Shown piece by piece: positions 25,090-28,089 of a stretch of DNA of 28,472 bases. The position numbers and the translations under genes were made by a program. The stretch lies in the IMG/VR virus record IMGVR_UViG_3300046167_000782, positions 1 through 28,472 of that record, one strand, 5' to 3'. The notes beneath the pieces are model-generated. The model was not told the DNA's origin, did no database searches, and saw nothing but the letters and a program-made list of their open reading frames with translations. Every line of letters starts with the position of its first letter. Positions within the stretch are counted from its first letter, which is position 1. This DNA is from a virus.

Positions 25090-25980
25090 ATGGAGAAAAA
25101 ATATAGCATTGGGAGCCTCTTCGCAGGGATAGGAGGCTTCGAACTGGGATTGGAGCGGGCTATCCCTGGGGCTTATACTCTGTGGCAAGTCGAGCAAGAG
25201 AAATATTGTAAGAAGGTACTCTCTAAGCATTGGCCAGAGGCTACTATTTATGATGATGTAAGGAACATAACGAAGAACAATACAAAGCAAGTGGATATCC
25301 TATGTGGTGGGTTCCCTTGTCAAGATATATCCGTAGCAGGAAAAGGGGAAGGTTTACATGGGAAAAAGTCTGGTCTTTGGTGGGAGATGCACCGTATTAT
25401 CGAGGAGTTACAGCCCAAAGCAGTTATTATGGAGAACGTTGCAGCAATCACTATTCGAGGGCTTGGAACAGTACTTGGATCGCTATCCCAAATCGGGTAC
25501 GATGCGGAATGGTGTACTATACGAGCGAGTGATTTCGGAGCCCCTCATAGAAGAGCGAGATGGTTTTGCATCGCTTATCCCTCCTCAGTGTCTAACAGCA
25601 GATGGACTCCTACCCACTCCAATAAAGAGCGAGAGCGAACGAAGGAGCCGATTCCAGCAAGGAGGCAGACCTCTAATGTGTATGCTTTTAAAGGGTTATC
25701 TACCTACTCCCTCAGTAAACGAGAGCAAGAACAATCCTTACACCCCTTCACAATGGAAGAGGAAGGACTCCCTAAATATAGATGCAGCCAGGCTAGCAGG
25801 CTACACAGAAGAAACTATTGGGAAGGATTCCCAACTGAATCCCCCGTTTGTAGAAGAGATGATGGGATTCCCTATCGGATGGACAGACTTAGAGCCCTAG
25901 GTAATGCTATTGTTCCTCAGTGTTCGGAGTGGATAGGGAGGAAGCTCTGGGAGAGTGGTATTCTACAAAGTAGTAATTGA
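25090..25980 (+). CDS. C5-cytosine DNA methyltransferase (Dcm-like)
   Basis: This 296-residue enzyme transfers methyl groups to cytosine C5. Motif I is SLFAGIGGFELGLE (9-22), motif IV GGFPCQDIS (73-81) with catalytic C77, motif VI ENVAA (115-119), and motif VIII RRARWF (154-159). Motif X is LRALGNAIVPQ (267-277). The variable target-recognition part (about 165-265) ends YWEGFPTESPVC-RRDDGIPYRMD, typical of phage Dcm-like enzymes. Remarkably, the +1 frame over the same DNA reads as another recognisable methyltransferase C-terminus. A GGGGGTAAC ribosome site precedes it, and a terminator follows. It likely protects phage DNA from restriction. Confidence 0.93.
   Translation: MEKKYSIGSLFAGIGGFELGLERAIPGAYTLWQVEQEKYCKKVLSKHWPEATIYDDVRNITKNNTKQVDILCGGFPCQDISVAGKGEGLHGKKSGLWWEMHRIIEELQPKAVIMENVAAITIRGLGTVLGSLSQIGYDAEWCTIRASDFGAPHRRARWFCIAYPSSVSNSRWTPTHSNKERERTKEPIPARRQTSNVYAFKGLSTYSLSKREQEQSLHPFTMEEEGLPKYRCSQASRLHRRNYWEGFPTESPVCRRDDGIPYRMDRLRALGNAIVPQCSEWIGRKLWESGILQSSN
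25358..25900 (+). other. Overlapping +1 frame with second methyltransferase-type C-terminal domain
   Basis: The frame is open for 181 codons within the C5 methyltransferase gene. From about 25583 on it reads PQCLTADGLLPTP, GYLPTPSVNESKNN, DSLNIDAARLAG and finally SQLNPPFVEEMMGFPIGWTD-LEP before a TAG. These are the classical LPTP and LNP-FVE-MMGFP-GWTDL signatures of phage C5 methyltransferase recognition domains. The stop falls exactly where motif X begins in the main frame. It could be reached by a +1 shift, for example at TAT CCC TCC (25576-25584) where CCC can re-pair as CCT, giving ~269 residues. An internal start at 25358 is the alternative. Confidence 0.5.
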
Positions 25981-27393: not shown

Positions 27394-28089
27394 ATGGATA
27401 TAAAAGAACGAAGAGAACCGGAGATTAATCTCCATCTCGGATGCTCTCTGCAGGCTATGCGAGAGATGAAGGATAACCAATACGATCTAGCAATCGTAGA
27501 TCCTCCTTATGGGATAGACTTCGATGGTAATACTACAATTTATCCAAAGTCAGGATTTAACAAAGGATTTACCGATAAACAGCATCATAAAAAAAAAGGT
27601 TGGGATAAACAGAGGCCCCCTGTAGAATATTTTAAACAATTGCTTAGAGTATCGAAGAATCAGATTATATGGGGAGGTAACTATTTTTCTGATCTCCTAC
27701 CACCTTCCAAAGGTTGGATATATTGGGATAAGAAAATTACTAATTCCAATGAAAAAAACTTTTCAGATGGAGAGTTAGCCTATACATCTTATAAAAAGAG
27801 GCTTATAAAATATACATATGATTGGATTGGATTTGGGTATCTAAATAATCCTGACAGACAAAAAAAAATACATCCTACAGAGAAGCCCTTCGCTCTCTAT
27901 AAATGGTTATTAGAGAACTATGCGAAGGAAGGAGATAAGATTCTAGATACTCATTTAGGATCGGGCTCGATTGCTTGCGCTTGCTACGATATGGGATTCG
28001 ATCTAGATGCTTTCGAAATAGATACAGACTATTACAAAGATACTTTACTTCGCTATACTGAATATTCGAAGCAGTGTAAACTATTCTAA
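27394..28089 (+). CDS. DNA methyltransferase, DPPY-type (adenine-N6 likely)
   Basis: This 231-residue enzyme has motif IV DPPYG at 36-40, the conserved HPTEKP at 160-165 and the cofactor-binding motif I as DTHLGSGS at 185-192, followed by DAFEID. The order catalytic motif first, cofactor motif last marks the beta class (as in CcrM/HinfI types); DPPY favours adenine N6. The part between (about 45-158) is target recognition and is clearly more AT-rich, with A runs, than both ends of the gene, suggesting domain exchange. GAGGTAC ribosome site. No restriction partner is seen, so it is an orphan protective or regulatory enzyme. Confidence 0.92.
   Translation: MDIKERREPEINLHLGCSLQAMREMKDNQYDLAIVDPPYGIDFDGNTTIYPKSGFNKGFTDKQHHKKKGWDKQRPPVEYFKQLLRVSKNQIIWGGNYFSDLLPPSKGWIYWDKKITNSNEKNFSDGELAYTSYKKRLIKYTYDWIGFGYLNNPDRQKKIHPTEKPFALYKWLLENYAKEGDKILDTHLGSGSIACACYDMGFDLDAFEIDTDYYKDTLLRYTEYSKQCKLF

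Follow-up and report, generated by a model that had tools for sequence, protein, structure and literature searches.

We analysed a viral DNA of 28,472 nt (IMG/VR record IMGVR_UViG_3300046167_000782, positions 1 to 28,472, hereafter the window) and find that it very probably encodes a two-polypeptide C5-cytosine methyltransferase of the M.EcoHK31I type, made from two overlapping reading frames of one strand, with the smaller chain (beta) started internally within the gene of the larger one (alpha). In the mechanism that we propose, alpha would supply AdoMet binding and catalysis (motifs I–VIII), and its chain would continue through a disordered linker, some 90 residues long, before a motif X helix packs back onto the core. 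Beta, started at 25358, would bring the target-recognition cassettes and motif IX, dock on alpha, complete the small domain and thereby set which cytosines are methylated. The enzyme would serve to shield the phage DNA against host restriction.

Results

The features of the locus are collected in Table 1. Elsewhere the window holds a second DNA methyltransferase (phrog_23224/67) at 27394–28089, 1.4 kb downstream, as well as helicase/primase, RusA and terminase genes.

Table 1. Elements of the nested methyltransferase locus, in window coordinates
Feature	Position	Strand	Remarks
Alpha subunit gene, 296 aa, proposed C5-cytosine methyltransferase catalytic subunit	25090..25980	+	frame 0; motifs I–VIII and X, without IX
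Alpha motif IV PCQ, catalytic cysteine C77	25315..25323	+	from sequence
Putative internal ribosome-binding site and beta ATG, gaaaaggggaaggtttacATG	25340..25360	+	built from alpha codons for GKGEGLH
Proposed beta subunit gene, 180 aa, nested inside alpha	25358..25900	+	+1 frame; putative recognition cassettes and motif IX
Alpha linker, residues 173–260, overlapping beta's cassettes	25606..25869	+	open in frame 0, not conserved
Beta cassette 1, LPTPIKSESERRSRFQQGGRPLMCMLLKGY	25610..25699	+	LPTP cassette array
Beta cassette 2, LPTPSVNESKNNPYTPSQWKRKDSLNIDAARLAGYTEETIGKDSQ	25700..25834	+	cassette family recurring in many loci
Beta motif IX, LNPPFVEEMMGFPIGWTDLEP	25835..25897	+	conserved +1 segment
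Alpha motif X and C-terminal helices, residues 263–271 and 276–289, GNAIVPQ	25876..25956	+	model, invariant residues

Alpha is recognised as a C5-cytosine DNA methyltransferase by its PF00145/dcm fold (PF00145, E=1.1e-49; TIGR00675 dcm also matches) together with its PCQ and ENV motifs, and it belongs to phrog_363 (E=1.1e-78), which PHROGs labels 'DNA methyltransferase'. The core of its structural model superposes on M.HhaI (Foldseek E=1.4e-15, 168 columns, rmsd 2.5). PCQ, ENV, the HRR region and motif X are kept in alpha among 47–57 relatives; in alignment A2, P76, G271 and N272 are invariant, with C77 and Q78 at 90% or above, and the C-terminal end of frame 0 reads ...FPTESPVCRRDDGIPYRMDRLRALGNAIVPQ.... 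The model is ordered over the core, drops below a pLDDT of 50 over most of residues 173–260 and, after this disordered linker, returns to mean values of 82–95 in blocks over residues 271–296. Alpha does not unite motifs I–X in a single chain, since motif IX is absent from it and is present in beta. Judged from this distribution of motifs, alpha alone is therefore an incomplete enzyme, and the missing motif is held by beta.

Positions 25337 to 25897 are free of stops in the +1 frame. An ATG lies at 25358, and the closing TAG at 25898–25900 falls within the motif X codons of alpha (CTA GGT AAT). The initial annotation had described a methyltransferase C-terminus read in two frames at 25560–25925, and had taken LLPTP, YLPTP and SQLNPPFVEEMMGFPIGWTDLEP in the +1 frame for signatures of a recognition domain. 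These segments are present (LLPTP from 25607, YLPTP from 25697), as are the stop inside motif X and the CCC TCC at 25579–25584, and the frame is indeed conserved over the TRD. The overlap is thus real, but its extent had been understated, as it continues upstream into the catalytic core. Database searches with both translations returned relatives for each, namely PF00145 and phrog_363 for alpha and phrog_1008 'DNA methyltransferase' for beta (E=6.6e-21), with no match for beta in Pfam or NCBIfam. The two phrogs are separate PHROGs families, and the search output does not state that they overlap. The best-conserved part of beta is its motif IX segment, LNPxFVEEMMGFPIGWT (47–57 relatives), in which L160 and F164–F171 are invariant in alignment A3; single-chain relatives carry motif IX in the main frame (KMI9, LSPRECFRLQGFP; SPR, RRLTPLECFRLQAF). 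Modelled alone, beta reached a mean pLDDT of 60 and a PDB search gave no meaningful match, and its alignment, compared with PDB profiles, retrieved only a few DNA methyltransferases over the IX region at a non-significant E of about 0.3.

A scan of IMG/VR with beta gave 471 relatives, the best 80 of which were fetched. All 80 of these viral loci place beta in the +1 frame of alpha, and in one of them (L064) alpha is interrupted. This bears out the claim that there are two readings, each of them real and conserved. Nesting of this kind is also present in Microcystis phage Mwe-JY08, Synechococcus phage S-H1, Acinetobacter phage ABMM1, Salmonella phage S9-5, Paenibacillus phages, Bacteroides phage BS-TP4, mycobacteriophage Nitzel, a Porphyromonas phage, virus Rctr197k, a Leptospira plasmid and an E. 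coli prophage. On the host side it is found on contigs of Bacteroidota (Prevotella, Phocaeicola, Chitinophaga and Pedobacter), of Planctomycetota and of a Euryarchaeota MAG. Existing annotation of the nested loci names alpha, beta, both or neither, for the most part just one of the two, and our search of the open literature, with subscription papers outside its range, found no report of the alpha/beta overlap in phages. Two prophage genes of E. coli are related to L003. In PT62 both frames are open from one end of the gene to the other; in PCP07014 (L117) the alpha and beta frames are each hit by a stop, and the two stops lie near one another, as though the pair had decayed jointly.

The actinophage loci L004–L006 depart from this arrangement, as alpha stops prematurely and the beta frame runs through motif IX into motif X. 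Going by these sequences, the beta frame is the only possible C-terminal half of the enzyme here, and, since no other is available, this argues independently that the frame is translated. As a separate observation, mycobacteriophage alpha shifts frame in the middle of the gene in L010 (Seabastian and relatives) and in L004 (GigiOuiOui), where the annotation gives two overlapping methylases; many phages share the L010-type split.

Close relatives carry a Shine–Dalgarno-like AAGGAG or GGAGGG, made from the GKGEG-type codons of alpha, before an ATG at the 25358 site or one or two codons away from it; the corresponding match in the window itself is weaker (-8.1 kcal/mol). Enterobacterial, Acinetobacter and Leptospira relatives have a beta-frame ATG 4 nt after the alpha start (ATGAATG, GTGAATG, TTGAATG). 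With this spacing in L003, L116, L118 and L119 the +1 frame covers almost the entire gene, and both starts may share one ribosome-binding site. Internal initiation appears to be the simplest account of beta synthesis, and among the options offered by the initial annotation, that of a partner protein with an internal start fits best, with the coding signal starting at the ATG and Shine–Dalgarno sequences in relatives.

C5 methyltransferase cores tend toward long open +1 frames, and chance was therefore tested directly. The longest +1 stretch measures 187 codons at alpha and at most 89 in every other window ORF tested; alpha recoded synonymously gives a mean longest stretch of about 115 codons. 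When the alpha protein was held fixed and its codons were recoded, the beta stretch remained open in 66 of 50,000 trials, and with the beta protein fixed the alpha frame remained open in 0 of 50,000. Permutation of codons within each of 19 loci gave 0–7 per 2000 for seventeen loci; the remaining two gave 23 and 35.

Constraint was then compared between frames as amino-acid identity in +1 and +2 over 187 pairs, which share ancestry, and rechecked with ten disjoint pairs, nine of which showed +1 above +2 over the TRD and motif IX. Upstream of the beta ATG the two frames are alike (+1 0.388, +2 0.390), with about 0.05 stops per codon. Within beta, where +1 stops are zero throughout, +1 exceeds +2 over the core (0.553 versus 0.486), the TRD (0.464 versus 0.357) and motif IX (0.892 versus 0.683); downstream of the beta stop the values are 0.416 and 0.384 and stops reappear at about 0.05 per codon. 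The stop-free signature with +1 above +2 is thus confined to the span from the beta start to the beta stop. In Straboviridae single-chain enzymes, used as controls, +1 and +2 identities are equal.

Enzymes of Streptococcus and Latilactobacillus phages had also been considered as single-frame controls, but were not clean, and the Straboviridae were used instead. In all seven of these C5 methylases (L113, L120–L125) the +1 frame is open for 141–174 codons over the core and is more conserved there than +2, and in most it ends in a LSDILEEEVDERYFLS-like segment, typical of the stretch after motif VIII in other C5 methylases. They possibly represent a second overlap or a history of frameshifts on a separate branch. 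Reduced third-base variation over the core, taken alone, is not specific to beta, as the streptococcal phage enzymes share it; the N-terminal third of beta therefore rests on the missing stops and a modest excess of +1 over +2.

Compared by frame, the core is more conserved in alpha (0.696) than in beta (0.555), while over the TRD beta reaches 0.533 and alpha, at 0.393, is close to the unused frame (0.378). Over motif IX (alpha residues 251–269) frame 0 differs by 0.289, 0.035 and 0.068 at its first, second and third codon positions, as expected for a gene read in +1, with the wobble base of beta as the free position; frame-0 third-base variation is 0.068 here and 0.516–0.552 outside. After the stop of beta, alpha codes normally again (third base 0.516, second base 0.172), and its frame remains free of stops in places where the unused frame has 0.06–0.16 stops per codon. 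Taking the TRD conservation, the motif IX codon pattern and the disorder in the alpha model together, the DNA between motifs VIII and X is best read as chosen for beta, with the alpha frame only kept free of stops as a linker that reaches motif X. The proposal of two enzymes with one catalytic core and two recognition ends is therefore not supported, since over the TRD frame 0 hardly surpasses the unused frame in conservation and its model is disordered there.

Between its N-terminal part and motif IX, beta consists of tandem units that start with LPTP and have a median length of about 41 aa. Among 88 loci, 19 have one such cassette, 47 have two, 17 have three and five have four to seven, with seven in Prevotella bivia (L102). 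After removal of loci at contig ends, 99 pairs of loci with alpha cores more than 75% identical differ by one or more unrelated cassettes, and in 21 cassette pairs the two members are similar but occupy different slots. One cassette, ASDATTGAI...GSxGLAR, is common to Bacteroides phage BS-TP4 and L017, the cores of which are 38% identical; the cassette itself is 62% identical in beta and 24% in the frame of alpha. The modules of this family are therefore both tandem and exchanged, and they look like exchangeable recognition modules comparable to those of multispecific phage enzymes. The locus may still have dual or multiple specificity, as had been suspected, via the tandem cassettes of beta instead of via two frames.

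Discussion

The pair is best understood against the known split enzymes. M.EcoHK31I and M.EaeI (target YGGCCR) are two-polypeptide C5 methyltransferases. For M.EcoHK31I, Lee, Kam and Shaw reportedly described in 1995 an alpha of 309 aa and a beta of 176 aa lying inside alpha in another frame. The window pair, with 296 and 180 aa, would match this layout. The large chain of M.EcoHK31I has motifs I–VIII and X and the small chain has IX (PMC3404938), and the window pair divides its motifs likewise. The likeness is one of motif layout, and there are differences: the predicted TRD of M.EcoHK31I was placed in the large chain (PMC3404938), whereas the recognition stretch of the window lies in beta and the corresponding part of alpha is a linker; the window enzyme is a phage orphan with no restriction gene noticed nearby; and its family has tandem exchangeable cassettes. 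In M.AquI (CYCGRG) the small subunit holds motif X together with IX and the ORFs are not nested as in the window, where X is in alpha. The core and the motif IX half of M.AquI reside on separate polypeptides (PMC3404938). The actinophage relatives L004–L006 show an AquI-like split.

Among single-chain enzymes, M.SPRI and M.H2I of Bacillus phages are multispecific, and the SPR group has tandem recognition modules between motifs VIII and IX. SPR is one polypeptide in one frame with in-frame motif IX, and its +1 frame closes after at most 37 codons, in contrast to the two frames of the window pair. BCE_0393 modifies seven sequences (PMC3459991). M.BatI, formerly predicted to be EaeI-like (PMC4722110), is an orphan C5 methylase of a prophage and is active; its gene is unusually short and its toxicity does not depend on catalysis (PMC8936443).

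Other readings of the locus have to be weighed against the nested pair. The initial annotation had offered a programmed +1 frameshift near 25579 (CCC TCC), which would fuse the alpha core to the recognition end of beta and yield two enzymes from one core. The CCC-U site does sit just past motif VIII, and the fusion would carry motifs I–VIII, the TRD and IX in canonical order. The +1 coding signature, however, does not begin at the shift site but at the ATG, about 220 nt upstream, where relatives have a Shine–Dalgarno sequence and ATG; the fusion would furthermore lack motif X, found only in frame 0, and the unshifted alpha would have no recognition domain of its own. We therefore regard a frameshift as quite unlikely. 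That only alpha is translated, and the open and similar +1 frame is a by-product of its amino-acid composition, is a highly improbable reading. It could appeal to the about 115 codons reached on average by recoded alpha and to the 141–174 codons of the streptococcal phage enzymes, but recodings as open as the natural gene are rare (66 of 50,000), openness is repeated independently across lineages, beta is more conserved than alpha in the TRD, frame-0 third bases are nearly frozen over motif IX, and alpha is without motif IX.

The opposite reading, in which only beta and the alpha core matter and the C-terminus of alpha is a relic of compensating frameshifts, draws on the unconstrained linker. 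Against it, alpha remains open where the unused frame accumulates stops, normal coding in alpha resumes after the beta stop, motif X of alpha is modelled with high confidence, and no recoding of beta left alpha open. With both frames intact and under selection across phyla, the relics suggested by the initial annotation hold very little credit with us. Beta might instead act on its own, as a DNA-binding protein or regulator that overprints the methylase without being its subunit, and the separate start of beta and the lack of any relative of solved structure would suit such a protein. We nevertheless consider this extremely doubtful, as beta has motif IX exactly where alpha has none, the actinophage beta frame continues into motif X as the C-terminal half of the enzyme, and beta was never seen apart from a C5 core in the loci examined.

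In kind, the two-polypeptide enzyme of the M.EcoHK31I type proposed here is ordinary; its breadth and the out-of-frame cassette array are unusual. We lean towards the view that such enzymes form a widespread class among the C5 methyltransferases of phages and bacteria, with an out-of-frame specificity subunit that carries one to seven interchangeable recognition cassettes, shuffled from locus to locus without closing either frame. If this is true, phages could change or stack their methylation targets with the catalytic code left untouched. Such a class would explain many phage 'methylases' that seem short or appear to be without motif IX, and it calls for caution, as cloning or mutating alpha also alters beta. 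It would further provide a naturally split methyltransferase whose specificity modules can be swapped. Long nested overlaps on the same strand with both frames under selection are seldom recognised, and here one extends across phages of several bacterial phyla and into host genomes. The family could thus serve as a test case for one strand evolving two proteins, in which one frame is informative and the other is just a linker.
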